From Olsenella uli (GTDB lineage Bacteria > Actinomycetota > Coriobacteriia > Coriobacteriales > Atopobiaceae): 64,000 nt of DNA. Below are positions 7,402 through 26,911 of this stretch, piece by piece; positions within the stretch are counted from its first letter, which is position 1, and every line of letters starts with the position of its first letter. A program made the position numbers and the translations under genes. Location: contig NZ_JACJJK010000007.1 of the NCBI RefSeq assembly GCF_016899935.1, forward strand, positions 1 through 64,000, written 5' to 3'. Below the pieces are notes generated by a model. That model searched no databases. It was not told the origin of the DNA and saw only the letters and a program-made list of their open reading frames with translations.

Positions 7402-8256
7402 TTATGGAATGTCCGTATCAATGGAAGCGTCATACGGACGGGTGTTTATGTATATGTTGCCGTTCTTGATTACATTGTCGTACTTTCTCTCTTGGTTCAG
7501 CTTGTTCTGTAGCTCAGTGCTCTTAGTCTGTAGAGCCGAAACCTGAGAGTTCAGAGAAGTCACTTGGGTATTGAGTGACGTGATTGTGGCGTTGAGACTT
7601 TGAACGTCCTGAGAGTGCTTCGAATTGATTAAAGCCACGTCCTCATTGTGCTTAGTCTCAAGGGCGTCTATCTCCCCTTGTAGCTGTGCCGCTACGTCCT
7701 CGTCCAAGAGTTCCCTAACGCTGTCGTACCAAGATTGAAAACTCGAAGTGATAGCGTCCAAGTCGAAGCGTAGGTTTATCCAAGGGCAATCACTCGTTCC
7801 ACGCAAGTCCTCAACCATCTCGTCCGTGAGGTATTGGGCGTTGGCGGGAATGGTAATCTTCGCCAATAGTAAGTCGAAGAGTGCGGCTGAGCGGGCGTAC
7901 AGCGGGTTGCCCTCCCCTTCCGCACCCTCCAAGTATTTCAAATAGACGCTACGCTTCTCTGAGTCGAAGCGTAGTGCTATGTAATCAACTCTCTCTTGTG
8001 CGTTGCCGTTGGCAAGCGTGAATTGCTTGTCCTCGGTGTTCTGGTAGAAGCGTCCCTTGATGAAAGCATCGCCCGGATTCACGACTACCGCGAAGGAGTT
8101 CTCGATTGGTTCAACCAAGAGTGCGGTTGAGACGTTGGGGATGATACCATCACCCCAGAACCCTAAGAACATCGCGGCGAAATCGTCTGAGTTGTAAACC
8201 CTGTCTAAGGTTCCGTCCTGATTCTCTTGGGCGTCCCAGAAAAGGCTTGTCTCCAT
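7402..8256 (-). CDS. Phage tail fibre/baseplate protein with coiled coil
   Basis: 284 residues. The first ~165 residues (FWDAQENQDGTLDRVYNSDDF, later LLVEPIENSFAVVVNPGDAFIKG) are clearly related to the N-terminus of the protein at 9377-10276, so the two are paralogous structural proteins built on the same virion-attachment domain. Residues ~175-260 form a long heptad-rich coiled coil (SLNATITSLNTQVTSLNSQ). It lacks the receptor-type C-terminus of its paralogue and ends with a short IYINTRPYD tail. It is the last gene of the late operon, ending just before a terminator. Confidence 0.75.
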   Translation of the reverse strand: METSLFWDAQENQDGTLDRVYNSDDFAAMFLGFWGDGIIPNVSTALLVEPIENSFAVVVNPGDAFIKGRFYQNTEDKQFTLANGNAQERVDYIALRFDSEKRSVYLKYLEGAEGEGNPLYARSAALFDLLLAKITIPANAQYLTDEMVEDLRGTSDCPWINLRFDLDAITSSFQSWYDSVRELLDEDVAAQLQGEIDALETKHNEDVALINSKHSQDVQSLNATITSLNTQVTSLNSQVSALQTKSTELQNKLNQERKYDNVIKNGNIYINTRPYDASIDTDIP

Positions 8257-9376: not shown

Positions 9377-10276
9377 CTAGAGAAGTTGGATGTAGATGGA
9401 GTTGGCGGTTCCCTTGGCGGGTGCGGCTGAGGTTCCCATAGTCACGCCAAGAGCCTGTAGTGCGGCGTAGCGTGAGGTTGCACCCGTGCCGCCACGGGAG
9501 ATTGGGAGTGTCCCGCTCGTGATTTCGGCGGCTGAGTGGTTGTGGGTAGCAGCTGCCGCTCCTAGGTTGGTACGTGCCTGTTCGGCGGTTGTCGCACCCG
9601 TGCCGCCCTTCTCGACTGCGAGAGTCTGAGCAAGCTGCTCTTGGATAGCCGTAATCTCGCCGTAGATGTTTCCCGCTGTGTCACCGTCGAGAGTTTCCTT
9701 CACGCCATCGAACCAAGTGTTGAACTCGGCGTCGTACTGAGAGAAGAGTCCGGTTGTGTCGATTTGCTCGACTACGCCCGTCACGAAGCCGCAAACGGTG
9801 TTGTCGGGTCGCTTGTCGGTAATGTCCTCCTCAGAGAGTTCCACCGCACCCGAAGCGACGCGAACCTCGGCGAGAACCAAGTCGAAGAGTTCGTCCTCGC
9901 GTGAGTGTGCGGGTGCTTGCGGGTTGGCGGAAGCCGCACCCTGAATAACTTTCAGTTCGATAAGTCGCTGTGAGAGGTTGAGCGAACAAACAACCTTGTC
10001 GATTCGTGGGTTGTTGGCGTCACCCGTAGCGATTGCAAGTTCCTTTGCGGAGTCGCTTAGCTCGTAGAAGTAGCCGTTAATCCAAGCCTTGCCCGGTGCG
10101 ACGCTAACCGCCATCTTGCCGTTGGCGGGAGAAACCTTTAGCTGGTTCGCGGGGCTTGCGTAGACTCCGTTGCCGATGAATGAAGCGAAGTAAGAAGCCA
10201 AGTCGGCACTTGAGTAAGTCCTATCATAACTTCCTTCCGCCCCCTGAGCGTCAAAGAAAGAGTAGTGTTCAGCCAT
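9377..10276 (-). CDS. Phage tail fibre/receptor-binding protein
   Basis: 299 residues. The N-terminal domain (FFDAQGAEGSYDRTYSS) is shared with the protein at 7402-8256. The C-terminal ~90 residues hold the tail-fibre signature VEKGGTGATTAEQARTNLG and again ISRGGTGATS, with NHSAAEI between, characteristic of trimeric fibre shafts near the receptor-binding tip. The gene starts about 18 bases after the Tal stop. Predicted role: host attachment. Divergence at the C-terminus would determine host range. Confidence 0.8.
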   Translation of the reverse strand: MAEHYSFFDAQGAEGSYDRTYSSADLASYFASFIGNGVYASPANQLKVSPANGKMAVSVAPGKAWINGYFYELSDSAKELAIATGDANNPRIDKVVCSLNLSQRLIELKVIQGAASANPQAPAHSREDELFDLVLAEVRVASGAVELSEEDITDKRPDNTVCGFVTGVVEQIDTTGLFSQYDAEFNTWFDGVKETLDGDTAGNIYGEITAIQEQLAQTLAVEKGGTGATTAEQARTNLGAAAATHNHSAAEITSGTLPISRGGTGATSRYAALQALGVTMGTSAAPAKGTANSIYIQLL

Positions 10277-10294
10277 ATTCAGTTGTCCTTTCGT

Positions 10295-11380
10295 TTATAG
10301 GATTAGTCGCTGTGCCGTCAGCCCCTCGCCGATGGTGAGCGTTACCAACATCCCGTCCCCCTCGTCAATCACGTTGACTTCCGAGACGTAATCGGTTGTC
10401 TGTACGTTGAAAGCCCTGTCGCGTAGCGTGACTCTCGCCCCAAGAGCGTCTAGGGCTTGCTGGACGGTGACAACGGACTCCGCGTCAACCGATAGCGTTG
10501 CGGGCTTTAGAGAAGTCTTAGCTTCCTCTTGGAGCATCGCCAGATAGTCCTGTGAGCTGATAGTCTGCTCGTCACCGTTAGCGTCTCGGTAGGTTGACTG
10601 TAGGTCGCGGCAGTCCGCGAACGTCTCACGCCTAGCAAGCCCGCTCTTCGTCTCGTCACCGACTACGGTTAGCACACGCTCGGCACCCTCGCCCTCACCG
10701 CCAGCCTTCACGACGTTGACTAGCTCCTTGTCAGACTCGGAGTAGTTGAGGGTGGAGACGTTGTTCAGGTCGCGTGAGAAGAGAAGCGGCTCGTCGCTCG
10801 TGATTGTCCTGTCCTCGCCCTCCAAGAGAGTGAAGACGAACCGTTCCGCGTTCTCGCAGTACACGTCGAAGCCTATCGGGTTGCCGCTCGTGGAGTTAGC
10901 AGTCTCAACGACTTCCTCAAGCGTCTCCAAGAGGTTAGAGTAGGAAACCTGCTTGTCGATTGTCGGGGTTGAGATTTGCGGCTTGTCCATACGTGAGAAG
11001 AGTGCTCGGTTGCCCTGAGTGTTCCTCTCAACCAAGTCGTTCACGTAGTCTCTGAGGTTCACTTTGCGGCTGTAGGTGTCCCACACGATGCGGTAGGCGA
11101 GAATCCCCTTTAGCTCGTTGCCGTATGCGGTGTAGGTTGTCGTGCCGTCCTCGTCCGTGCTGTACTCGATTGAGTAGCAGATGCCGCAAATCTTGGGGCT
11201 GATGTAGATGAAGCGTCCAACCTTCAACATCTGCCCTATCTCTTGGGTGAAGTTGCCCTTGATTGTCCAAGTGCCGCACCCCTTGAAGGACTTAGTGAAG
11301 TTGAGCGAAGCGTAGGAGTCGAGGACGCCGACGCACTCTGTAGGCGTGACGCCCTCGACTTTGTAAACGTATATGTTCAT
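10295..11380 (-). CDS. Tail-associated protein (Tal / Gp37-like)
   Basis: 361 residues beginning MNIYVYKVEG and containing the block WTIKGNFTQEIGQMLKVGRFIYI, which matches siphovirus ReqiPepy6 Gp37-like / tail hub (gp27-fold) proteins. It occupies the canonical place after Dit and before fibres. There is no appended peptidase or muramidase domain, so wall degradation at entry would need another protein. It starts only 3 bases after the Dit stop, indicating translational coupling. Confidence 0.8.
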   Translation of the reverse strand: MNIYVYKVEGVTPTECVGVLDSYASLNFTKSFKGCGTWTIKGNFTQEIGQMLKVGRFIYISPKICGICYSIEYSTDEDGTTTYTAYGNELKGILAYRIVWDTYSRKVNLRDYVNDLVERNTQGNRALFSRMDKPQISTPTIDKQVSYSNLLETLEEVVETANSTSGNPIGFDVYCENAERFVFTLLEGEDRTITSDEPLLFSRDLNNVSTLNYSESDKELVNVVKAGGEGEGAERVLTVVGDETKSGLARRETFADCRDLQSTYRDANGDEQTISSQDYLAMLQEEAKTSLKPATLSVDAESVVTVQQALDALGARVTLRDRAFNVQTTDYVSEVNVIDEGDGMLVTLTIGEGLTAQRLIL

Positions 11381-11383
11381 CCG

Positions 11384-12259
11384 CTACACCTCGATTAGCT
11401 GAGGTGTGTAGTAGACGTTGCACTCAAGCGTTCCGGTTGACTCTTCGTCGTAGTCGTATCGGAAACTTGAGATACCAACCGGCATTTGTAGCCAAGTGGA
11501 CTCTAGCGACACGTGCTGTAGCCAGTTCTCGTCAAGCGTGGTGTTGCGGCAACTCTTGGTGCCGTAACCCGTGTTGACGATTACCTCCTCGCCGCTCTCA
11601 AGAGTCGCTTCGATGGTTAGTTCCTCGCCGGTGTTCACGTTCATAAGGGACGGGTTGACGATTGTTCCGGCTACCGCCTTGAAGGTGATAATCATTCCGG
11701 TTTCGACTTCGGACTCGTTGCGTAAGTCAACAATCTTGGAAGTGCTTCTGTGCCCGATGGTGAACTTCTGCCCTACCGGGTTGCAGTAGGGAAAGTGGAA
11801 GTCCTTTATCCAACCCGTGATGCTTGCTTGCTGCTCTTGGATAGTCTCGAAGAACGGGTTCGAGCAAGTCCCCTCTATCGTGAACTTCGTAAGCATCTCG
11901 CAGTTGAGATACCAGTCAGTCTCATATTGAAGAGTAGAGGTTGCCGTGATGCGGAGACGATACTTGTTGTCAATGACTAGGTAGAAGTCCGTAGTGGGGA
12001 CGATTACCTTCTGTAGAGTCGCTTTTCGACTCTTCATCTCCTCTTCGGTGTCGGCGAGTACGTACCCCTCGATAACGACTTCTCGCGTGCCGTACTGTCG
12101 TGCGGTTATCGTCTGTCCCGCCTGTCCCGCACCCACGTAGGATGAAAGGTTCGCTTCGATTGAACCCAAGTCCAATAGGCTCTTGGTGTACGTCTTGTTG
12201 TCGAAGTTGATAGCCACTGTGCCATCAAGGTTCGTGATGGTGTACTTGCGTTTTCTCAT
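11384..12259 (-). CDS. Distal tail protein (Dit)
   Basis: 291 residues of the siphovirus Dit family: N-terminal beta-rich ring domain with QTITARQYGTREVVIEGYV, then a second galectin-like part, and the typical CEMLTKFTIEGTCSNPFF middle. It forms the hexameric ring joining tail tube and tip. It lies directly downstream of the tape measure and upstream of Tal, the standard order. Confidence 0.85.
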   Translation of the reverse strand: MRKRKYTITNLDGTVAINFDNKTYTKSLLDLGSIEANLSSYVGAGQAGQTITARQYGTREVVIEGYVLADTEEEMKSRKATLQKVIVPTTDFYLVIDNKYRLRITATSTLQYETDWYLNCEMLTKFTIEGTCSNPFFETIQEQQASITGWIKDFHFPYCNPVGQKFTIGHRSTSKIVDLRNESEVETGMIITFKAVAGTIVNPSLMNVNTGEELTIEATLESGEEVIVNTGYGTKSCRNTTLDENWLQHVSLESTWLQMPVGISSFRYDYDEESTGTLECNVYYTPQLIEV

Positions 12260-12270
12260 ATCCCTCCAAT

Positions 12271-14253
12271 CTAGGCGAGTGCGAGTTGACGGACTGAGCG
12301 TTTGAACTCTCGTGCTGAGTCCTTCTCGTTCAGCGTCTTGGGCGAGTAATTGTTCACGACAACAGTTGTCGTGGAAGTGCTGTTGTTGGTTGTGGTGCCT
12401 TGCGTGCCTGTGCCAGCTCCCCCAAGGCGTGCGTTGCTGTAGGCTCGGTAGTTTGCTTCAACGTCCGGCATATCTACCGCGAAGGCGTCAGTTACGCTCG
12501 TGGCGGCATTCTTGACTGTCTTTAGTACGCCCTTGAGTCCGCCCTCGATTCCCTCTTCCATACCAGCCATAGTGAAGTCACCGATTTCGGCGAATACCTT
12601 TGAGGGCGAGTGGATGCCGAGAAGGCTCTTCGCCCACCCGATAGCGTCGTTCACGACGCCGCCAATTGCGTTGATTACGCTCTGGGCACCGCTCGTGATT
12701 CCGTTCACGAGTCCTTGGATGATGTTCGAGCCAATCTGAACCACTCGGCTCGGTAGGCTCGTGATTCCGTTGATTAGGTTCGAAGCGAACTGAGACGCGG
12801 CTCTGGTTGCGTTCGAAGCCATCTGCCCCACCCAAGAGCCGACGTTCGAGATGATGTTGGAGAGGAACGAGGCTATGCGTCCGGGTAGCTGAGTGATGAA
12901 GTTGATTACGTTGTTTAGGAACTGAGAACCGGCTCGCGTAGCGTTGCTCGCCATATTGCTCACCCAAGAGACAACGTTGGAAAGGATTTGGGAGAAGAAG
13001 CTCGCAATCCGTCCGGGGAGTTGGCTGAACCAGTCAACCATACTCTGAATTGCGTTCGGTACCTGTACCGTGAAGAAGTTGATTACCGCACCCCACACTT
13101 GGCTAGCGGTTGCACTAATCGCGTTCCAAGCGTTAATAACGGCGTTGCGGAAGTCCTCGTTGGTAGTCCATAGCGTAACGAGTGCCGCCACGAGTGCGGC
13201 GATTAGGGTTGCGACTAAGACGAACGGGTTTGCATTCATAACCGCGTTGAGTGCCGCCTGAGCAATCGTTGTCGCTTCGGTAGCAGTCTTGAACGCCGTG
13301 ATAGCGGCTTGGATTCCGGTGATGATTCCGATTACCGCCTGTGCGGCTTGGAATCCCATTATTCCGCCCACGACGGCGGCGATAGCGGGTGCCCACTGTA
13401 CGAAGGTGTCCTTGATAGCGGGCAAGTTGTCCTTGAACCATTGGATAGCAGGTTGGCAGTTGGTGAGAAGCGTTGTGCCGAAGTTGGTTAAGTCCGTGAC
13501 GATTGGCATTAACGCCATACCCAAGTCCGAAAGTGCTTGGTTCATTGCGTCCTGTGCTTCACGGTATGCGATTAAGTCCGCGTTGTTGTCGCGGTAAGCC
13601 TGTCCAGTCTCGCTGTAGAGTCCGTTCAGCGTGTCGGTAATGAGTTGGCTTCGCTCGGCTTCCGAGTTGCACGCGGCGAGCTTGGCGTTGAACTCGTCCT
13701 CCGATACGCCAGCCCAGTTGAGGGCGTCGGCAAGCGAGCCGACAACGGTTCCGGTTTTCGCGGTTTCGTTGGCTGCTTCTGTAAGGGATTCAAGCGGCAG
13801 GGAGTCACCGAACGTCGCGAACACGCCAGCCGCGATGTTAGTCCATTGGCTTAGTTCCTCTTCGCTCGTGCAGAGTTGAGCCAAGTGGTTAGACGCTTCA
13901 ACGGCTGTGTCGGTTTCCCCCAAGAGTCCGACGAAGCCCTTGTAGGTGTTCCCGGCTTCCTCGGCACTCCAACCCGCTTGCTGGAATGCGGTATCGAGTT
14001 TGCCCATGTCCTCTTGAGTCTCGTTCGCGACGCTAACAAGGCTCGCCACGGCTGCTGTGATAGCCGCAAAGCCTACTGCGGCGGCTGTCTTAACGCTTGA
14101 GGAAAAGGAGTTCCAAGAGTCCGACATTGATTTCGTCGATTGCTCGGTTTGGCTCTCCGTGTCCTGAGTTGTCTTCTTGACGCCCTCAATCTCGGACTTA
14201 GCGGCTGTGGAGTCGGCTTCGATGCCGATTCGTAGTGTGCCTAAATCTAACAA
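12271..14253 (-). CDS. Tail tape-measure protein
   Basis: 660 residues, starting at TTG with GGCGGTG just upstream. N-terminal helical region, hydrophobic segments around the middle, then at least two near-identical repeats (QLPGRIASF, later SWV.MASNATRA) of about 46 residues, and a Ser/Thr/Asn-rich tail (TTTVVVNNYS). This is the usual architecture of tape-measure proteins that set tail length and enter the cell envelope. At roughly 1.5 angstrom per residue it predicts a tail near 100 nm. It follows the chaperone pair as expected. Confidence 0.88.
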   Translation of the reverse strand: MLDLGTLRIGIEADSTAAKSEIEGVKKTTQDTESQTEQSTKSMSDSWNSFSSSVKTAAAVGFAAITAAVASLVSVANETQEDMGKLDTAFQQAGWSAEEAGNTYKGFVGLLGETDTAVEASNHLAQLCTSEEELSQWTNIAAGVFATFGDSLPLESLTEAANETAKTGTVVGSLADALNWAGVSEDEFNAKLAACNSEAERSQLITDTLNGLYSETGQAYRDNNADLIAYREAQDAMNQALSDLGMALMPIVTDLTNFGTTLLTNCQPAIQWFKDNLPAIKDTFVQWAPAIAAVVGGIMGFQAAQAVIGIITGIQAAITAFKTATEATTIAQAALNAVMNANPFVLVATLIAALVAALVTLWTTNEDFRNAVINAWNAISATASQVWGAVINFFTVQVPNAIQSMVDWFSQLPGRIASFFSQILSNVVSWVSNMASNATRAGSQFLNNVINFITQLPGRIASFLSNIISNVGSWVGQMASNATRAASQFASNLINGITSLPSRVVQIGSNIIQGLVNGITSGAQSVINAIGGVVNDAIGWAKSLLGIHSPSKVFAEIGDFTMAGMEEGIEGGLKGVLKTVKNAATSVTDAFAVDMPDVEANYRAYSNARLGGAGTGTQGTTTNNSTSTTTVVVNNYSPKTLNEKDSAREFKRSVRQLALA

Positions 14254-19291: not shown

Positions 19292-19870
19292 TTATCGCCC
19301 CGATAGTTGCTTGTACAAGTCGGGATTCGTCTTGTAGAGTTCCGCTTGCTGCGATAGCGGCATTGCTCGGAACTGCTCTTGGGTGATGTGGGTGTCAAGA
19401 GGTAGGTTCTTCTTCGGTGTCTTTGTAGCAAGACGCTTCTCTACCTCTGCTTTGACGGAAGCCTTGAATGCGTTGTCCAGACGGTTGATGTTCTCCATCA
19501 TCTCGTCCGCGTCCTCCGCAACTACCATGTCCACGAGTTGAGCGGAGATTCCCCTGTCTGCGAGAATCTGAGAAGCGGTAGCCTTGTTCTCTGCGAGTGC
19601 GAGTTCCTTTTCCTTGGCTTCGATTGCCTTCTCGCGTTGCTCAAGTTCGTACTGGAACTTCTGCTCCTCGTTCATCTGTGCGAGCTTGGCAGCTTCCTTT
19701 ATCTTCGCTTGGCTCTTTCGCTCAGCCTTCTTCATCGCTTCTGAGACTCGCTTATCGCCCTCTTTTTGCAAGAGTTCGCGGACTTCCTCTTCCGTGTAGG
19801 TGCGGGGTGTGGATTCCTGAGTCTCGGTTGCCTGAGTCTCTTGGGACTGGTTCACGGCTTCGTTTTCCAT
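19292..19870 (-). CDS. Capsid scaffolding protein (DUF4355/GP20-like)
   Basis: 192 residues, highly charged and almost entirely coiled coil. A Q/T/E-rich start leads to TYTEEEVRELLQKEGDKRVSEAM, then KAIEAKEKELALAENK. The C-terminus LPLDTHITQEQF..MPLSQQAELYKTNPDLYKQL is the capsid-interacting tail common to this family. The gene is preceded by a leader with conserved box and terminator (see 19915-20004). Confidence 0.85.
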   Translation of the reverse strand: MENEAVNQSQETQATETQESTPRTYTEEEVRELLQKEGDKRVSEAMKKAERKSQAKIKEAAKLAQMNEEQKFQYELEQREKAIEAKEKELALAENKATASQILADRGISAQLVDMVVAEDADEMMENINRLDNAFKASVKAEVEKRLATKTPKKNLPLDTHITQEQFRAMPLSQQAELYKTNPDLYKQLSGR

Positions 19871-19914
19871 ATTCGTTTCCTTTCATTCGAGTTGCGGCGA
19901 TATACCGCCCCTGC

Positions 19915-20004
19915 CAAAAAAGAGAGTTGGAGCGTTCTGCTCCCCCTCTCGTTCGTTCATCTGTATTTGAAAAAAGCGGGCTGTCTTTTATCGGCTTTAG
20001 CCCT
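19915..20004 (-). promoter_or_regulatory. Leader module A: conserved box plus terminator
   Basis: On the minus strand: GGGC-N18-GCCC containing TAAAA, then TTTTTTCAAATA, about 30 bases, then the hairpin GGAGC/GCTCC extended by GAGAG/CTCTC and a TTTTTT tract (19915-19950). The scaffold ORF starts 45 bases later. The box overlaps the stop of the upstream gene. It is one of four related modules. Confidence 0.6.
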
Positions 20005-20419
20005 AATCCTTTAGAGGTAGCCCCTCCAAGTCCCGCATGAGTTCGTGGACGTATGAGTTGCCGCCCATCTTCTCGTAGGCTCTGAACTGTGCTTGGAGAT
20101 AATCGAGCGTGCGATAGTCGATGTATCCGAGTTCCATATACTCCTTGTGCCTATCGACTATCTTTCCCTTGATGCGGGATATGCTCGCTTCCTTGAGGAC
20201 TTGCGTATCGTCCTCGTTCTTCTCAACCTTCTCCAAGAGAGAGTCAAGCTTGGAGTTCAAGTTGTCCATCTTCGTCTTCTTCGTCTCTACGAAGTGGAAG
20301 TGCTCGTTGAGGTAGCTGAGGAACTTCACGATAGCGGCGATGCAACCCGCCAATATCGAGCAGAATCCTATGAACTCCCCAAGAGTGTAGGTAGATATGA
20401 GTTCGAGCACGCTAATCAC
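20003..20419 (-). CDS. Membrane-anchored phage protein, holin-like, putative
   Basis: 138 residues. One transmembrane segment (about residues 9-32) is followed by a coiled coil (LNSKLDSLLEKVEKN). The C-terminal motif RHKEYMELGYIDYRTLDYLQAQFRAYEKMGGNSYVHELM recalls small phage membrane proteins with the pattern Y..LGGNG...L. In other phages these are often annotated as holins or holin-associated, but here it lies between the minor head and scaffold genes and no endolysin is present. It overlaps the preceding gene by 8 bases. Function uncertain. Confidence 0.6.
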   Translation of the reverse strand: MISVLELISTYTLGEFIGFCSILAGCIAAIVKFLSYLNEHFHFVETKKTKMDNLNSKLDSLLEKVEKNEDDTQVLKEASISRIKGKIVDRHKEYMELGYIDYRTLDYLQAQFRAYEKMGGNSYVHELMRDLEGLPLKD

Positions 20420-21221
20420 CTACAAGCGTGTAAGTGCAGGTGCAACGCGGGTGTACTGGTAGAAGTTTCTCAAGTTCCTCTAACGTGTAAATCTCACCGT
20501 TGTACTCTTGGCACTCTTCGCAACAAGTCGGGGAAGCTAAGAACTTCCCCTTGGTGAAGCCGTACTCCTTGTAGCGTTGGGTTTGTGCGTATACCTGTGC
20601 GTGTGCGGTTTCGGTTCTCACGAGCCTAAAGGCGTTCTCACGGCTAACCTCAAGCTTGTCGCTCATAGCCTTGGCAATCTCCCAAGGGGACTTGCCCTGA
20701 ACGAGTGCGTCAGAGAGTGCCTTCTTGATTTGCGGGAGTAGCTTCTGCTTGTCCTGCCAAACCCTGTCAGAAAAGTTCTTGCCGTCCAAGCACCAAACCT
20801 GATTGACTATCTGCTTGCCGTCTATGGCGTGTGCGTTCATCAACGCGGTGTTCACGCCGGATGTTGTGGCTACGATGTTGGAGTCAACTATATCCAGCGT
20901 CTCTTGGTAGGCTTTCACAATCGCTGGTTCCGTGATTCTAATCTGCTCGCGTCCGAGTGCCTTTAGCCGCTCGTTTATCTCCTCCAAGAGTTGCCAATAT
21001 CTACGGTTGCGGTACAAGTCGTTCGCCTGTATCGGCTCGCCCGTACCCTTCTGCGACTCTATCTTTGCGAACACCTCTAGGATGCTGTTGCGGAGTGCGG
21101 TTGCTTGCTCTTGGTATATCGCGGCTAGTTCCCTTTCAGTGTCCTTGTTGAGTCGCTTGTAGGAGTTCTCTTGCTCTTCCTTGATTCTCTCTTGCCAGTA
21201 GCTATTCCGTCTCTTCGCCAT
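20412..21221 (-). CDS. Minor head protein (SPP1 gp7 / Mu F-like)
   Basis: 269 residues. The basic helical N-terminus includes YWQERIKEEQENSYKRLN. The conserved C-terminal MuF domain includes ENAFRLVRTETAHAQVYAQTQRYKEYGF, then CCEECQEYNGEIYTLEEL and HPRCTCTY. The Cys/His pairs are typical of the family. It associates with the portal and may be ejected with DNA. It overlaps the portal gene by 20 bases, which suggests translational coupling. Confidence 0.85.
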   Translation of the reverse strand: MAKRRNSYWQERIKEEQENSYKRLNKDTERELAAIYQEQATALRNSILEVFAKIESQKGTGEPIQANDLYRNRRYWQLLEEINERLKALGREQIRITEPAIVKAYQETLDIVDSNIVATTSGVNTALMNAHAIDGKQIVNQVWCLDGKNFSDRVWQDKQKLLPQIKKALSDALVQGKSPWEIAKAMSDKLEVSRENAFRLVRTETAHAQVYAQTQRYKEYGFTKGKFLASPTCCEECQEYNGEIYTLEELEKLLPVHPRCTCTYTLVGD

Positions 21222-22551
21222 TTGCTACCACCTGCTCAGCCGCATATGGGTCGAGGTACGGTTCGTTCTGTCGCTCGATACGCTCGACTTCGGCGGCTAC
21301 GTCCTTGATGAACGGGATTTGTGCGAGCAGGGTTTCGTCGCTTACAAGCCCGCGTAGGGAGTTCACCATGTTTACCGTGTCGAGGATTGAGGTAGGTAGA
21401 TTGTGCTTGAAGGAAACCTCCACGGGGCAAACGTCCGTGTCAACGAGTTCGAGGATTGTGTTGATAAGCGAGATACGCTTCTGTAGTGCCTTGCGGAACC
21501 TCGCTTCGATGTTGGATGCGATGTTGTTGAACCCAACGAGTTTGAACTGAAGTGCTATGCCGCTCGATACGCCGTTGTTGAACTCCTCTGAACTGAAGTC
21601 GGGCGAGTTGCTAACGGTGTGGATGCTCGTGTTGATGTTGTCCAAGAGGTTCTGAATCTGTGTGTCGGAGATGTTCTTGGTTAGATAGGAAACGTCGCTC
21701 TCGCCGTCGATGATGATTGTGCGGTTAGCCTTCATCTCTGCCAAGTCCTCCGCCGTGGCGTCTAGGTTCTTTAGAACCATGTAGGCGTCAACGAACGCCG
21801 CGAAGTCGTTCACCTCGTCGGAAAGGAGTGCGTTGTAGGCGTCCTGTAGGGAGACGATAGGCTCGAAGATGGGCGTGTTGGACTTGTTCAAATCGAAGAT
21901 AACGAAGGGTACCTCGTTGAAGTAATGCGGCTCTACTTCCAAGAGGGTGAAGTCGTTGAAGGTGTTGGTTGACTCGTAGTGGTAGATTTCCGACTCGGTG
22001 TAAACGTCAACGTCCCAGATTTCGGGTGCCGTCTCGTCCTGCCAGTTCTGGACGGGCGTGTAGTAGATTGCGTATAGAAGTTCCTCGTCCAAGTCGTTCG
22101 AGTAGACTGGTGCCACTGAGCGGGCGTCGATGTTCTTGAAACGCTTCTCGTTGTTCTCGTTCACGTAGCATAGTTCGAAGGCTATCCCGTTTACCAACGC
22201 TTCCTGTAGGAACTCGGAGTCCGTGTTTATAACGTCGTTGTCGTTGAGAATTTCCTGAATGGCGGAAACGTCCGCTTCGTCAATCCCCGAGTAGGACACG
22301 GGGTTGCCTGTTAGGTAGCCTTGGAAATTCTCTACGATGGTTTTGCAGTAGTTCTTTACGATTCGGTTGTTGGGGCGTGTCGGGTCTGGGTTGGTGCGGC
22401 TCATGATAGCCTGCCCGCGTCCCTCGTAGTATCCGTTGGCACGTTCGAGCATGGGGACAACCTTCTCTTGGTGCTTGCGGATAATCTTGCCGATGATTTG
22501 CGGGGTGAGTTCTTCACCCTTGTCGAATAGAATCTTGTAAATCGTTCTCAC
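21202..22551 (-). CDS. Portal protein (SPP1 gp6-like)
   Basis: 449 residues of the SPP1-type portal family. Recognisable blocks include HQEKVVPMLERANGYYEGRGQAI, IVKNYCKTIVENFQGYLTGNPVSY, EVPFVIFDLN, the central coiled stem, and LQFKLVGFNNIASNIEARFRKAL with a following VSFKHNLP. It forms the dodecameric channel through which DNA is packaged. It starts 4 bases after the terminase stop. Confidence 0.9.
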   Translation of the reverse strand: MRTIYKILFDKGEELTPQIIGKIIRKHQEKVVPMLERANGYYEGRGQAIMSRTNPDPTRPNNRIVKNYCKTIVENFQGYLTGNPVSYSGIDEADVSAIQEILNDNDVINTDSEFLQEALVNGIAFELCYVNENNEKRFKNIDARSVAPVYSNDLDEELLYAIYYTPVQNWQDETAPEIWDVDVYTESEIYHYESTNTFNDFTLLEVEPHYFNEVPFVIFDLNKSNTPIFEPIVSLQDAYNALLSDEVNDFAAFVDAYMVLKNLDATAEDLAEMKANRTIIIDGESDVSYLTKNISDTQIQNLLDNINTSIHTVSNSPDFSSEEFNNGVSSGIALQFKLVGFNNIASNIEARFRKALQKRISLINTILELVDTDVCPVEVSFKHNLPTSILDTVNMVNSLRGLVSDETLLAQIPFIKDVAAEVERIERQNEPYLDPYAAEQVVANGEETE

Positions 22552-22555
22552 CCCT

Positions 22556-23794
22556 CTATAACGTGTACTTGGGTAGTGTCTTAAGACGGTGCTTGTGCTC
22601 GCTGCATTGGAGCGAGTAGCGAAGTGCGTCTATGGCGTGGTTGTAGGCGTCTATCGGTTCGTTGACGTACTCACCCGTGGACTTGTCCTTCTTCCACGAG
22701 TAGTTCTCAAGTTCCTCCAAGAGGTTGAAGCAACTTGAATCGACAACTATCTCGTATTGCTGTAGTTTCTGGATGCCCTGTAGGACTGAGCCTTGTCCCT
22801 TGGCGGCGGGCTTGATGCGGGAAATGCCCGCACGCTTTATCTCCTCGATTGACTTCTGCTCGGCGGAGTCCGCGATTATCGTTGACTTCGATAGCCCCAT
22901 CAACTTCAGTTGTGCGGCTATCTCGTCGTTCAGAAGCCCAGTCTTGAAGAACTCTCGGATTACGTAGAGTTTGGATTCCTCTTCGTCCAACAGGCAATCG
23001 ACAATGGCTGTCGGGTCGTTGACGAAGCCGAAGTCCAACCCCACTAGATGCTGTAGGTCGCGGCTCCTGAGTTCGTCTATATCAAGCTCCTCTGAGCGGT
23101 AGTTGGTGAAAACCTGCTTTGACAGCGAACCCCACTCACCGAGAGTGTAGACGCGGTAGTAGTAAGGGTTGGTACGCTCGTAGTTCTCAAGCGTGTCCAC
23201 CGTCTCTTGGTTGAGGAACGGGTTGTCCTTGTACGTCGTGCGGCTGATGATGCAGTTAGGTTCCTTGCAACCGTCCTCGAAGAAGTGCTTGAAGAGCCAG
23301 TTAGCCTTGGATACGGGGTTGCTCATTAGTACCACTTGGTTGTGCAACGTACCCTTGCCGCGTGTACGCTGAAGCAACTGCGAGTAATCATCGAATGTAA
23401 TCTCAGACGCTTCCTCAATGAGAATGTCGTTAATGTCCGGTATCGACTTGACTTTCTCGAAATCGTCAAGCCCCATCAAAAGGAAACGGCTACCGTTCGA
23501 CAGCCGCACTTCCATAGTCGTTTGGTTGACTTGGCAGAGGTTCTTAACCTTGAACTGTCCAAGAGTCCTGAGCAAGTCTTCCCAACAGGAACGGCGAACG
23601 TCAACCGCACTCTTGCGGACAATCAATATCTTCCTGTTGGGTTCGGACAACGCACGGTACACGGCTCGCTGGAAAGAGAAGTAGGACTTCCCTGAGCCGC
23701 CACCGCCTAAAAGAAGTATCACCCTGTGCTCGTTGTCCAAGAGCAAGGGAAGAAACGCCGGTGCGAATATGCGGCGGGAAACCTTGATATTCAA
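22556..23794 (-). CDS. terL: Terminase large subunit
   Basis: 412 residues. Walker A LLGGGGSGKSYF near residue 30; Walker B-type acid cluster INDILIEEASEI near 127. The C-terminal RNase H-like nuclease has the first acid in VGLDFGFVNDPTA, and a late IDAYNHAIDALRY contributes further acids. It belongs to the PBSX/Terminase_6-type family typical of headful-packaging siphoviruses. It lies between terS and the portal gene. Confidence 0.92.
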   Translation of the reverse strand: MNIKVSRRIFAPAFLPLLLDNEHRVILLLGGGGSGKSYFSFQRAVYRALSEPNRKILIVRKSAVDVRRSCWEDLLRTLGQFKVKNLCQVNQTTMEVRLSNGSRFLLMGLDDFEKVKSIPDINDILIEEASEITFDDYSQLLQRTRGKGTLHNQVVLMSNPVSKANWLFKHFFEDGCKEPNCIISRTTYKDNPFLNQETVDTLENYERTNPYYYRVYTLGEWGSLSKQVFTNYRSEELDIDELRSRDLQHLVGLDFGFVNDPTAIVDCLLDEEESKLYVIREFFKTGLLNDEIAAQLKLMGLSKSTIIADSAEQKSIEEIKRAGISRIKPAAKGQGSVLQGIQKLQQYEIVVDSSCFNLLEELENYSWKKDKSTGEYVNEPIDAYNHAIDALRYSLQCSEHKHRLKTLPKYTL

Positions 23795-23808
23795 TTGTGT
23801 TCACCGCT

Positions 23809-24252
23809 TTAGTCAACAAGCGATACTTCTATGGTTGAGTTGGCGTCAACCTTGTAGTTCTCGGTGTAGAAGCCGCCCATCTTGTTCAATAAGTCGATAG
23901 CCTTGAGTCTGTCCGTGTTGGAGTTCTCTTCGTTAAATGCAATCTCTCGAAGGCTGAATATCGTCTCGTTGCGGCGAATGGCTTGAGACTCTTCAATCTT
24001 CTGCTCAATCTTCTCTATCTGCTTCTTGACGGCTTCCTTGTGTCGGTAGGCGTAAGCTTTAGTCCTGATTGTGTTCGGACAAGGCATTTCGGACTCGTCC
24101 TTGTCCGGGTTTATCTCGTGCCAAAGTCGGCGGTATGCGGCACTTGCGTTGTAGCCGCACTCGATTACGTAGAGTTCCGCAAACCGCTTGTTCTTCTTTG
24201 CGGTTGTCCAACCGTCTGTAGTGGCTTTCGCGGGCGTGTACAATCGCCGCAC
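23809..24252 (-). CDS. terS: Terminase small subunit
   Basis: 147 residues. An N-terminal helix-turn-helix (KNKRFAELYVIECGYNASAAYRRL, with TIRTKAYAYRHKEAVKKQI) is followed by a coiled coil, then a C-terminal segment AIDLLNKMGGFYTENYKV, the standard terS tail. It recognises the packaging site and loads terL. The gene lies immediately upstream of terL. Confidence 0.85.
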   Translation of the reverse strand: MRRLYTPAKATTDGWTTAKKNKRFAELYVIECGYNASAAYRRLWHEINPDKDESEMPCPNTIRTKAYAYRHKEAVKKQIEKIEQKIEESQAIRRNETIFSLREIAFNEENSNTDRLKAIDLLNKMGGFYTENYKVDANSTIEVSLVD

Positions 24253-24259
24253 CTCCTAA

Positions 24260-24712
24260 CTAATACTCATAAGTCTCGAAGCACTCTTGGTACTTCCAAT
24301 AGGGCAAGAGGTAGAGGGTTATGAACTTGTATTCATCGTCCTTCGTCACCCTGCGGAACGACTCGGTTCTAACCAAGTGCCGCAAATCCTCGGCTTTAAT
24401 AGCTACAAACTTGCTCTCTTGGTTCGGGTCAACGAAGCAGAAGTAGTCAGCCTTGGAAGTCCAAAGCCAACTCTTATGCTTGCCGTAGGCGTTCGTGATA
24501 GAGTCCTCCAAGGCGAGGTTTCCGGTTTCGCTGAACCTGTAATCAGTCTTAACCTCGTATGTAAGCCCGTCTGCGGCTATCAAATCTACGTCTTGGGCTT
24601 GGTACTCGGATTCCTCGGATAAGTCCCTTATATCGGCTCCTATGGCTTCGAAGTAGCCCTTCACGACTTTCTCGCCGACTTTGCCGCGTCTCTTGTCCTG
24701 TATAAAACCCAT
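24260..24712 (-). CDS. PD-(D/E)XK-type nuclease
   Basis: 150 residues. DVDLIAADGLTYEVKTDYRF gives the D...E-x-K catalytic triad of the restriction-endonuclease fold, after GEKVVKGYFEAIGADIRDLSE, the usual first helix with an acidic residue. Small nucleases of this kind near terS may resolve junctions or assist packaging; which one cannot be told. The start at 24712 is preceded by a GGAAAAGG-type site and the leader module at 24753-24857. Confidence 0.75.
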   Translation of the reverse strand: MGFIQDKRRGKVGEKVVKGYFEAIGADIRDLSEESEYQAQDVDLIAADGLTYEVKTDYRFSETGNLALEDSITNAYGKHKSWLWTSKADYFCFVDPNQESKFVAIKAEDLRHLVRTESFRRVTKDDEYKFITLYLLPYWKYQECFETYEY

Positions 24713-24752
24713 TTCAATGTTTCACCTTTTCCTTTCCTTGTTCCTGCTTATG

Positions 24753-24857
24753 AAAAAGGGCAGGGGTGTTAGCCCCTGCCCTCTTCCAAGAGAAACAGCA
24801 GATATGACTGCTTCTCTATTTGAAAAATCCCTGCTGTGTTTTATCGACTATCGCCCG
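24753..24857 (-). promoter_or_regulatory. Leader module B: conserved box plus terminator
   Basis: Minus strand: CGGGC, then ATAAAACACAGC, TTTTTCAAATA, about 30 bases, then GGGCAGGGG/CCCCTGCCC (24758-24781) and TTTTT. It lies between the RHH gene and the nuclease gene. The right half of the box is degenerate (AGGG instead of GCCC). Confidence 0.55.
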
Positions 24858-25249
24858 TTCAGGCAGTGAGCCACGCGGGCGGCGTAGGAGTGCTTTACGC
24901 TCGGGTTCTCACGCTTGCTCTTCTCGAAGTCGTTCTTGAGCTTTAGTTCCCGCTCCCCAAGAGCACGCCAGTAATCGGGTTCCTTTGCCAGCCCCTCGCG
25001 GTATGACTCGTAGAACTTGGCGGCGTCGTTCAACGTCTCAGGCTCGATTTCATCGAGTGCGTTGAAGCCGACTGATTGGAGGAACTTAACGAAGTCGCTT
25101 GCGGCGAAGACGGTTTCCTTGCGGTTGAGTTCCATGGAGATAAGGTTGCGGCACGCTTCGGACACGTTCATCTCGTGGGCTGCGGCGAAGGCGTCAATCT
25201 TCGCCTTCATAGAGTCGGATACGCGGACTTGGATTGTGTTGTTCATCAT
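24848..25249 (-). CDS. Ribbon-helix-helix protein (CopG/Arc-type)
   Basis: 133 residues starting at ATG 25249 or the next codon 25246 (AAAGGAAAG upstream); the longer frame lacks support. The N-terminus TIQVRVSDSMKAKIDAFAAAHEMNVSEACRNLISMEL is a classic RHH DNA-binding domain. The C-terminal ~90 residues are helical and unique (LKLKNDFEKSKREN). RHH proteins in phages act as repressors, Arc-like regulators or plasmid-type antitoxins; this one is a candidate regulator in the absence of a CI-like protein. Confidence 0.75.
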   Translation of the reverse strand: MMNNTIQVRVSDSMKAKIDAFAAAHEMNVSEACRNLISMELNRKETVFAASDFVKFLQSVGFNALDEIEPETLNDAAKFYESYREGLAKEPDYWRALGERELKLKNDFEKSKRENPSVKHSYAARVAHCLNGR

Positions 25250-25301
25250 TGTTTCTTTCCTTTCGTTGTAGTGATTTGTATTACCTCTTTCCCCCAAATA
25301 A

Positions 25302-25423
25302 AAAGGAAGGACGGCGGTGAAACCGTCCCTCCCCAATAGAAAGGAAAGAGTAAATAGCAATGGCACTCGCTATTCACTTATATATGAAAGTTGGGCTATG
25401 GTTTTTAGCCTGTTATGCCCAAC
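25302..25423 (-). promoter_or_regulatory. Leader module C: conserved box plus terminator
   Basis: Minus strand: GTTGGGC-N20-GCCCAAC (perfect 7-bp arms) with CTAAAAACCA inside, then TTTCATATATAAGTGAA, then GGAGGGACGG / CCGTCCTTCC hairpin (25304-25333) and TTTTTATTT. The RHH gene starts about 50 bases later. This is the best copy of the box. Confidence 0.6.
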
Positions 25424-25474
25424 TTTTCTAAAACTTTTTTTCCAAGAGACTCAAGATGTAGAAGTCTCGTGCGG

Positions 25475-25921
25475 CTAAGCCTTCTTCATGAGTTGGCGAG
25501 CCTTCAGAACGAGTTTCTGAGCGTCGGAAACCTTCTTGCGTCCAACCTCCAAAGCCCAGAGGAAGTCTTCGCCCTCTACGGTGATGAACTTGTTGCCGCC
25601 AGTCTTCTTCTTGGCGGCGAATGCGAACACGCCAAGCATGAGAAGGCGGGTAGCCGTCACGCGGGATTGAAGTTCCTCGCCGTCCTCAAGGGTGATGGAG
25701 TTGATTTCGCTCCAAAGTGCGATTCCAGACTCCTCCTCGTTGTTCGTCACCTTGTACTCGATGCCGTTCTCGCGGAGGAACAGGGTTGCCGTCATATCGT
25801 CGCTGAACATGAACTGGACAACCTTGCCGTATTTCTGAAGTTTCTCTTGCTCTGCTTGCTTCTTCGCCGCCTTGCGGGCTTGCTTTTCCTCGCGTGATTC
25901 CTTGCTTCCGAATAATCCCAT
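25475..25921 (-). CDS. Hypothetical phage protein with PH-like core
   Basis: 148 residues. A very basic/charged coiled N-terminus (KESREEKQARKAAKKQAEQEKLQ) is followed by a beta-rich middle (IALWSEINSITLEDGEELQSRVTATRLLMLGVFAFAAKKK) resembling bacterial PH-like domains, and a helical C-terminus. The short hydrophobic stretch LLMLGVFAFAA is not long enough for a convincing membrane anchor. It starts 18 bases after the upstream gene stop. Function unknown. Confidence 0.6.
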   Translation of the reverse strand: MGLFGSKESREEKQARKAAKKQAEQEKLQKYGKVVQFMFSDDMTATLFLRENGIEYKVTNNEEESGIALWSEINSITLEDGEELQSRVTATRLLMLGVFAFAAKKKTGGNKFITVEGEDFLWALEVGRKKVSDAQKLVLKARQLMKKA

Positions 25922-25939
25922 TATTCCTTCCCCTTCCTA

Positions 25940-26548
25940 TCAGTAGATATAGTTCTTAGAGACTCTTGGAGCGTTGCCGAAGGCAACGCCCGTTTTCGGC
26001 TTGTCCGAAAACGCAACTACATTCTCATTTTCATTCTCAATCTCATTCTCACTCTCAATTACATTCTCAGTCTCAATATCATTCTCATTATCATATTCAT
26101 AATCATACTCATACTCATAGGTTGGACAAGTTGGACAAGTTGGACAAAGTTCAGGATAGTCCGCTTCTATAATCCCGATTCGATAGGCAACGGTACTCTT
26201 CGGTATCCCAAGTTCCTCTTCAATCTCTCTCGTTGTCTTGCCCTCGTTCTTTAGTTCGGCTATCTCGTCAAGCCGCAAGTCTTTAATCTTTGCCGCTCTC
26301 TTGGAATCGCAGGTCTTCTTGTAGCGTTGATAGTTCTTGTCGGATGCTTGCTTCAACGGTGTCAGCATCGCGTTCACCATTCCATTGTCTGATTTAGATT
26401 CCCCGCATATAACCGTCTGTATCGCGGCGATAGCAAGCTCGCCCGCTAACGTCGGGTCGCTGTCGTAAACCATCTTCACTTGCTCAAGAACGGAACTGTA
26501 GATAACCGCACTGTCGCGGCAGGCTTCTAAGTTGAAGTCAGTAATCAT
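25940..26548 (-). CDS. HTH protein with acidic low-complexity tail (replication-type, putative)
   Basis: 202 residues. The N-terminal ~90 residues (VIYSSVLEQVKMVYDSD, then LAIAAIQTVICGES) resemble phage DUF6291-like proteins often found with replication genes. Residues ~95-130 form a resolvase-type helix-turn-helix (DEIAELKNEGKTTREIEEELGIPKSTVAYRI). The rest is low complexity: CPT three times, then EYEYDYEYDNEND and an E/N-rich run. It is the only candidate here for a replication or regulatory initiator; that role is inference. Confidence 0.6.
   Translation of the reverse strand: MITDFNLEACRDSAVIYSSVLEQVKMVYDSDPTLAGELAIAAIQTVICGESKSDNGMVNAMLTPLKQASDKNYQRYKKTCDSKRAAKIKDLRLDEIAELKNEGKTTREIEEELGIPKSTVAYRIGIIEADYPELCPTCPTCPTYEYEYDYEYDNENDIETENVIESENEIENENENVVAFSDKPKTGVAFGNAPRVSKNYIY
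26018..26152 (+). repeat. Simple-sequence tract within the HTH gene
   Basis: Runs of CATTCTCA-like units (26018-26120), and GGACAAGTT three times (26124-26152) on the plus strand. They encode the E/N-rich and CPT repeats of the overlapping minus-strand gene. Slippage here would change tail length. Confidence 0.7.
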
Positions 26549-26588
26549 TACTCTTTCCCTCCTATATTCAGTTGTCAGTAGTCGTTTG

Positions 26589-26759
26589 TTAGTCGGCTAG
26601 GCGTTCGCGGATAGCACGGCGGATGAACTCGCCGCTGCTGATTCCCTCTTGCTTGGCGGCGATTCGAAGTTCCTCTCTCAACTCTCTTGGAAGTTCGACT
26701 GAGAGACTGATTAGCTTCTCGTAACGCTTCGCCCAGTATTCCTTCTGCTTGTCGTTCAT
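26589..26759 (-). CDS. Small ribbon-helix-helix protein (56 aa)
   Basis: 56 residues from ATG 26759, chosen because AAAGGAG lies at the right distance; the longer frame runs through a terminator. The C-terminal half ISLSVELPRELREELRIAAKQEGISSGEFIRRAIRERL is a complete CopG-type RHH. A basic helix (KQKEYWAKRYEK) leads in. Probably a DNA-binding regulator or excisionase-like factor; the second RHH protein in the element. Confidence 0.75.
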   Translation of the reverse strand: MNDKQKEYWAKRYEKLISLSVELPRELREELRIAAKQEGISSGEFIRRAIRERLAD

Positions 26760-26800
26760 TGCTGTTTCTCCTTTCGGTATTTGCCCAAAGTTCCTTGCCT

Positions 26801-26911
26801 GAAAAAAGAGGAAGTCCCGTTTGGGACTCCCCCTTTCAGGAAGGAAAAGGCATATTTGGTTGTTCACTATGTATTGAAATTTGGGCGGTGGTTTTTATTA
26901 CTTCTTGCCCA
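26801..26911 (-). promoter_or_regulatory. Leader module D: conserved box plus terminator
   Basis: Minus strand: TGGGC-N20-GCCCA with TAATAAAAACCA inside, then AATTTCAATACATAGTGAA, about 40 bases, then GAGTCCC/GGGACTT hairpin (26812-26829) and a CTTTTTT tract. The 56-residue RHH gene starts about 50 bases later. Confidence 0.6.

Follow-up and report, generated by a model that had tools for sequence, protein, structure and literature searches.

Four genes on the minus strand of a prophage in Olsenella uli are each preceded by the same succession of a conserved sequence box and a hairpin, which raises the question of what signal these leaders share and at which step of expression it might act. 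The locus lies within a 64,000-nt stretch (positions 1 to 64,000 of contig NZ_JACJJK010000007.1, assembly GCF_016899935.1; hereafter the window). A first-pass annotation had described the box as a core enclosed by GGGC and GCCC arms, had placed an intrinsic terminator in every leader, and had proposed either a regulon of conditional terminators or a promoter specific to the phage with a downstream terminator that has to be overcome. Here we report that the observation is partly confirmed and its interpretation partly supported: the box looks like a promoter and belongs to a wider family, and a covariance search of the kind suggested there found a structured RNA in the leader of the scaffold protein gene rather than in the box. 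Our favored reading, to which we assign a probability of about 0.55, is that the box acts as a promoter and the leader hairpin as a translational operator on the scaffold mRNA, perhaps an autogenous one.

The RNA element was analyzed upstream of DUF4355 scaffold genes, for which a search with the scaffold alignment yielded 80 phage loci, 76 of them used and four lacking upstream sequence. The motif N-AG-GG-stem-loop-stem-AA-CU-N' was found in 60 of the 76 leaders (58 by a stricter rule); elsewhere it occurred six times in 406,557 nt of the same strand and once in 433,917 nt of the opposite strand. A search requiring AGGG, AACT, and the inner stem returned 120 distinct copies, of which 114 lay on the gene strand. 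The outer N-N' pair was Watson-Crick in 104 of the 120 (33.8 expected), and the next pair outward showed nothing. When pairing was not required, the outer pair was formed in 89 of 108 AGGG...AACT stretches upstream of scaffold genes, compared with 32.3 +/- 4.5 after permutation, and the inner pairs in 92, 86, 88, 78, and 53 of the 108, compared with 29, 44, 32, 28, and 26 expected. There was no sign of pairing farther out, where the second and third positions were paired in 27 and 33 cases (30 and 32 expected). After model-fitted alignment, a procedure that favors structure, 97.5% of cells pair and covariation reaches 0.82, compared with 0.197 in shuffled alignments. With the loop not presupposed, GG/AA was the commonest 2x2 internal loop (48 of 102; the runner-up had 5).

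In the window, covariance model A3/R2 (hereafter R2), built from 11 hairpin copies, finds two places at E<5, both on the minus strand in the scaffold leader and both with scores that are modest when taken alone. Copy 1 (19924..19948; GAG-GG-GGAGC-AGAAC-GCUCC-AA-CUC; 19.1 bits, E 0.027) is kept in the relatives L086 and L087, and copy 2 (19889..19913; CAG-GG-GCGG..CCGC-AA-CUC; 13.3 bits, E 0.83) has a C.C mismatch at its outermost position. R2 gave 76 matches in 82 loci, all of them on the gene strand and a few within the scaffold gene itself. Among 33 sources that were either terminase-anchored or whole contigs, and that partly overlap the 82 loci, 12 of 15 matches fall just before the scaffold gene and 11 of 20 scaffold genes are preceded by a match. 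Four matches at E<1 were obtained in 25 control loci.

The position of the hairpins is as regular as their structure. Among 68 distinct leaders, 30 hold one copy, 22 hold two, and 16 hold none; the last copy ends a median of 16.5 nt before the start codon, and in 16 of the 20 leaders having both elements the start of the first copy lies 45-55 nt downstream of the GG of the box. In the window, the corresponding distance is 55 nt for copy 1, and the end of copy 2 lies 18 nt upstream of the ATG; from this geometry the hairpin at the first site (A), previously taken for a terminator, is copy 1 of the scaffold-leader motif. Copies of the motif are seldom followed by a T-tract, since at least five T within the next 8 nt were counted for 10 of 114. 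A conserved RNA structure thus adjoins the ribosome site of one gene, which is the arrangement that characterizes translational operators.

No Rfam family reached its gathering score in the window, in ten scaffold loci, or in L217. The nearest Rfam resemblance is to RF02980 (freshwater-2), a leader motif that also runs up to a Shine-Dalgarno sequence and ATG, but the overlap is weak (18.3 bits against a gathering score of 49.9) and the aligned helices differ from the AGGG/AACU pair. The titles and abstract openings covered by our literature search held no description of such a box or scaffold-leader motif, and the motif is apparently undescribed so far. It may nevertheless be listed, unnamed, in the supplement to PMC8040213, an article that reports 28 candidates for structured RNAs in the neighborhood of integrase, sortase, or phage domains and tabulates them there. 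A shared stretch around (G)ACATTAAA was also observed before scaffold genes in the L200, L211, L274, and L276 leaders, in L193 before 23036, and before a scaffold gene in Streptococcus phage Javan633; this stretch may represent a hairpin variant.

The canonical motif is missing in 16 of the 76 scaffold leaders, and seven of these (L257, L252, L256, L251, L243, L238, and L215) carry the order stem-AA-CU-N-loop-N'-AG-GG-stem', a circularly permuted form in which both helices and the GG/AA loop are retained and the chain is opened elsewhere. A strict rule found 15 permuted copies upstream of scaffold genes, two elsewhere in the 406,557 nt, and none on the opposite strand, while other pairs of tetranucleotides under the same rule gave 0 to 3 copies. 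These 15 comprise the seven in leaders lacking the canonical form (of which L238 and L215 do not have the third pair), two in the leaders L245 and L250, and six that are doubtful. Among the doubtful copies, those of L217 and L218 are flanked by canonical copies in tandem, three are at or within the coding sequence of the scaffold protein (L240 and the second copy each of L243 and L238), and that of L269 is 264 nt upstream. With pairing not required (n=50), stem pairs 1 and 2 were formed in 29 and 32 stretches, compared with 14.5 and 15.2 after permutation, pairs 3 and 4 in 20 each compared with 12, and pair 5 in 14 compared with 12. Since the loop is kept despite the changed connectivity, these data point to recognition of the loop by a protein. 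It is less probable, in our view, that the scaffold-leader hairpins are elements of mRNA stability or ribosome standby that involve no sensing of a protein. Such elements would fit the frequent location of the first copy at the predicted 5' end and of the last copy immediately ahead of the Shine-Dalgarno sequence, but they would not require that one internal loop persist through circular permutation and be almost confined to a single gene.

The box, which precedes the hairpin in the scaffold leader, looks like an element of DNA rather than an RNA stem. On the minus strand of the window, box A (19953..20003) is promoter-like and lies upstream of the scaffold gene, with its GGGC at 20003-20000 and a predicted start near 19959, and it is kept in L086 and L087. 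Boxes B (24806..24856; without the GCCC arm), C (25370..25420), and D (26860..26910) precede the genes of a 150-aa protein, a 133-aa RHH protein, and a 56-aa RHH protein, respectively, and are found by both pattern and model. Direct reading confirmed all four sites, each with zero mismatches to GGGC-N9-TAAAA-N2-CA, as well as the order of box, TTTCA/AT-rich sequence, leader hairpin, ribosome-binding site, and gene at every one of them. Three further matches in the window have two mismatches each, and because seven matches with at most two mismatches compare with 8.9 expected by chance, the two-mismatch count alone is no evidence. A looser exact pattern gave one extra match in the 2.1-Mb genome, outside the model matches at E<=1. 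Model R1 scored the window boxes at E 4e-10 to 2e-6, values that are not independent because its training set included site B and homologues of A, C, and D.

Enclosure by GGGC and GCCC did not hold up as a definition of the box, as the GCCC arm is missing at B in the window and in both relatives (L086, L087), and also in L007. Pairing within the box itself reached -8 kcal/mol or lower at 8 of 54 sites, with 3.6 expected from mismatched controls, and was absent at B and at L007+9482. A preQ1-like or other riboswitch was considered and rejected, there being no Rfam match in the stretches scanned and no conserved stem. Six copies of the box can fold, ahead of their T-tract, into a hairpin of -13 kcal/mol or lower, as if doubling as the terminator of the preceding gene.

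Aligned across phages, the box proved longer and more general than first described: it spans 50 bp with the fixed spacing GGRCAAA-N6-TAA-N14-TTTTYA-AT-rich-TGA. The consensus of 55 sites has GG (98-100%), R, C (93%), and AAA, then TAA 13 bp after the GG, TTTTYA at +30 to +35, an AT-rich segment, and TGA near +44, and shows no dyad; the T-tract is replaced by an A-tract in a few copies (L007+6533, L008+4971, L010+6177, and box A of L087). These sites derive from a weight matrix grown from the boxes, which collected 73 distinct sites and gave 75 gene-strand and five opposite-strand matches at a score >18, a strand count that is not independent because the matrix was built iteratively. Removal by hand of 11 sites, mostly within coding sequence, left 62, and removal of near-duplicates left 55; one of the 11 (L023+4509, before a scaffold gene) was removed too strictly. 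One site out of register by a base reduced the set to 54 for the tests of box pairing and self-complementarity, and box model A1 was built from 32 of the 54.

Conservation of the box outside this genome, which the first-pass annotation had made one test of its proposal, was found both in relatives and in loci that had no part in training. All four boxes are present with unchanged spacing in Collinsella provencensis and Olsenella prophages, and L007, whose terminase is 70% identical to that of the window, has one box before terS. After 11 of the 76 scaffold leaders had been set aside as trained, the frozen matrix at a score >=14 detected a box in 21 of the remaining 65, several of which are near-duplicates of each other (e.g., L217/L218 and L242/L244), compared with 8 of 1114 other plus-strand windows (0.72%) and none of 1266 minus-strand windows. 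Among 396 Coriobacteriia genomes, seven had a box match at E<=0.02; the strong ones are the host, G001 (L087), G222 (L086), and G273, and the weak matches in G288, G247, and G324 (E 0.007-0.016 over the 396 genomes) are at chance level. The match in G273, from another family of the same order, is independent (E 1.9e-6) and has as neighbors an integrase, an open reading frame (ORF) weakly similar to window g197, and an RHH-looking ORF without a Pfam match. Positions 9900-13700 of this locus (L178) probably represent an integrated element with a single box, which may be a remnant or a satellite.

In the host genome, a 32-site model matched only the four prophage sites, and a host regulon was rejected on this ground. 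The 25 control loci (548 kb) gave four weak box matches, the best at E 0.35. In 391 genomes of G427's class, 4 of 391 had a match at E<=5e-4, a figure that is not interpretable with 14 candidates scored per genome. The terminase matches in INPHARED all had <60% identity, the best among those listed <50%, and no box was found in the five records scanned. An exact-pattern scan of viral_contigs returned 13 stretches, of which L139 is the contig of L006 (a 93% terminase relative) and the other 12 looked like chance or unrelated matches; a stricter motif scan returned seven stretches and established no new group.

Several observations suggest that the box looks like a phage-specific promoter with its start near the TGA. 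Wherever a downstream gene was found, the box points toward it, although for many sites the simple gene finder found none; the genes include scaffold, terS, HNH, GIY-YIG-like, and RHH genes and a large gene of L007 with a weak DEAD match. Site-matched self-complementarity across the 54 sites is absent for 5' arms at +6 to +34 and rises for 5' arms at +42 to +54, as expected if transcripts begin at that point with a hairpin. Neither the TTGACA nor the TATAAT hexamer is present in the 55-site consensus, and none of nine scanned sigma-A/sigma-70 promoter-like sites fell within a box, the nearest (26966-26938) lying upstream of D. In L007, an RHH-like gene has TTGACA-17-TATAAT upstream and its neighbors have the box, and hence the box is not simply that host-type promoter.

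Terminator-like hairpins are present in the leaders of three of the four window sites, all on the minus strand. The B leader has a hairpin followed by a T-run at 24753..24782 and a 5' hairpin at 24812-24797; in the C leader (25303..25378), a 5' hairpin at 25378-25349 abuts a rod that holds the terminator hairpin at 25334-25303; and the D terminator (26802..26834) forms part of a longer rod. All four leaders, A to D, are strongly folded relative to shuffles (z -3.6, -5.1, -5.5, and -5.0). The T-runs in the window, L086, and L087 are 6, 9, and 7 at D, 5 in all three at C (then A and TTT), 5, 4, and 5 at B, and 6, 4, and 4 at A. A GC-rich hairpin with a T-tract, as in an intrinsic terminator, is thus present at B, C, and D, and is weakest at B. 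A promoter followed by a terminator fits B, C, and D, where there may be a layer of conditional termination, whereas the hairpin at A is a copy of the scaffold-leader motif. Across the family, terminator-like hairpins lie within 110 nt in 9 of 55 box leaders, compared with 0.8 expected from shuffles, four of the nine coming from the close family of the window itself (window, L086, L087). The remaining 46 have none within that distance, so that a regulon of conditional terminators is not supported as a general rule.

These counts bear on the possibility that RNA polymerase starting at the box is modified, by a Q-like factor or by the leader RNA, to pass the leader terminator, with the terminators as the regulated step. 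We regard it as unlikely, though it accounts for the excess of leader terminators, the T-runs of at least five kept at C and D in three genomes, the strong folding, and the 5' hairpin that directly abuts the terminator rod in the B, C, and L007 leaders. It does not account for the 46 leaders that lack a terminator, and no antiterminator gene was recognized among the proteins scanned.

A somewhat less likely explanation still is that the box is an operator at which a phage repressor or activator, such as one of the small RHH proteins, acts on an ordinary promoter; one-directional stoperators would be the comparison. RHH genes follow a box in the window (C and D) and in L009, L010, L012, L035, and L068, and the L007 RHH-like gene with its TTGACA-17-TATAAT also speaks for this explanation. 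RHH matches at E<1e-3 occur in 12 of 24 box-positive loci and in box-bearing loci only (those of L011 and L038 appear only when TGA is translated as Trp; the L007 match is weak), but the RHH seeds were mostly chosen beside boxes, so the association is biased. The consensus has no dyad, and some contigs with a box have no RHH match, certain of them having DUF5659 genes instead. No single regulator common to the box phages was found. DUF5659-type genes were observed in box phages without an RHH match at L031:5329-5517, L034:4807-4995, L021:1667-1903, and L040:2998-3204, and are the next genes after a box in L031 and L034.

That the leaders merely hold ordinary, independent intergenic terminators and that the box is conserved solely through recent common ancestry is very improbable: the box is itself a strong hairpin before a T-tract in L009, L010, L034, L038, and L011, but it recurs where terminases are only 42-70% identical to that of the window, and gene-strand boxes in untrained loci disfavor the idea.

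Under the favored reading of promoter box and translational operator, transcription would start at TGA(A)G, which places the GG of the box near -48, its TAA near -35, and the A- or T-tract with YA at about -18 to -13, followed by an AT-rich region for melting. The box occurs in a single orientation ahead of separate transcription units in a siphophage group. Its transcripts would often open with a hairpin, and from units bearing a terminator only a short leader RNA would be made except when RNA polymerase reads through. The scaffold leader instead carries one or two GG/AA-loop hairpins, the last usually ending just upstream of the Shine-Dalgarno sequence, and we propose that a protein of the phage, with the scaffold protein as the most likely candidate, would bind the GG/AA loop and block ribosome entry when free scaffold is in excess. 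We put forward only tentatively the more specific proposal that the GG/AA two-helix module, in either connectivity, is a cis-operator by which the scaffold protein limits its own synthesis, on transcripts from a new class of dispersed, activator-dependent phage promoters.

Several results weigh against this reading. We infer both the promoter activity of the box and the binding of the hairpin by the scaffold protein from sequence. Two thirds of the untrained scaffold leaders (44 of 65) have no box at a score >=14, and five named phages with related terminases have neither box nor hairpin at the scaffold gene. Self-complementarity also rises at -6 to +2, at about +70 to +78, and upstream at -30, and the test can be inflated because it mixes AT-rich and GC-rich phages. 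The R2 matches in the window are weak (E 0.027 and 0.83), and in 391 genomes of G427's class the hairpin model matched five places in four genomes at E<=0.02, which is chance level. The motif was first noticed in the same leaders that were later used for counting, although the pairing tests are independent of that. Finally, there are box-positive contigs without any RHH match (G066, G073).

The proposed control resembles known systems in parts. The translational operators of the MS2 coat protein and of T4 gp43 are also small hairpins adjoining the ribosome site, whereas here the common feature is a 2x2 GG/AA loop, which frequently occurs in tandem and is also found with permuted connectivity. 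At the Q-dependent late promoter of lambda, a terminator lies closely downstream, as in some of the leaders here, but the box occurs in several dispersed copies, the terminator is optional, and no Q was recognized. The scaffolding protein of phage P22 is reportedly autoregulated post-transcriptionally, and we know of no defined RNA operator or target for it. P22 is an unrelated phage; the likeness lies in post-transcriptional control of a scaffold gene, which here is proposed from a defined RNA motif. Work on the P22 autoregulation (Wyckoff and Casjens, 1985) is cited in PMC5744158. RinA/Ltr of S. aureus phi11 and phi13, as described in PMC13123087, likewise controls packaging and capsid genes close to terS in a phage-specific manner, but acts at one late promoter with 18-bp repeats from -107 to -42, whereas here a single 50-bp box precedes each of several units. 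No RinA/Ltr/ArpU regulator was named among the window proteins scanned, no dedicated search having been made. A covarying RNA motif nearly confined to the scaffold leaders of an uncultured phage group makes the question of scaffold autoregulation testable, and the box adds a promoter-like class that is a possible phage-specific expression signal in gut Coriobacteriia and the other hosts of the group.

The prophage occupies approximately 4-29 kb of the window, where G+C content dips to 50-58% compared with mostly 63-76% in the flanks, and its minus-strand genes encode an integrase, the two RHH proteins, an HTH protein, a terminase, and head and tail proteins. Of the gene assignments made at first pass, the scaffold protein (DUF4355/Gp46-like by family match; 19292..19870, minus strand) and the two RHH proteins were upheld, and the supposed nuclease, the 150-aa protein (24260..24712, minus strand), had no named family in profile scans. 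The 56-aa protein (26589..26759, minus strand) matches RHH_1 of Pfam; the 133-aa protein (24848..25249, minus strand) is recognized by a hidden Markov model that has its own sequence among the seeds, and otherwise only by an unnamed PHROG. No replication, lysis, or repressor gene was recognized among the prophage proteins scanned (window 3800-29000). The phages with the box are siphophages, and many of the related contigs, whether complete or not, measure 19-27 kb; together with the lack of such genes, this size may indicate a group of phages with small genomes.

At the end of the late operon, the proteins encoded at 7402-8256 and 9377-10276 both match phrog_1220 ("head protein"), and one of them also matches tail-fiber families. 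HTH-like proteins with a low-complexity tail (YEYEYD..., NVNVND...) are encoded near an RHH gene at 25940-26548 of the window and in the L038 ORF after box 7918. The G062 scaffold match (L012) contains two in-frame TAG codons, and the RHH ORFs L011:3612-3923 and L038:7964-8116 contain in-frame TGA; in conserved genes, this suggests recoded stop codons in some phages of the box group.

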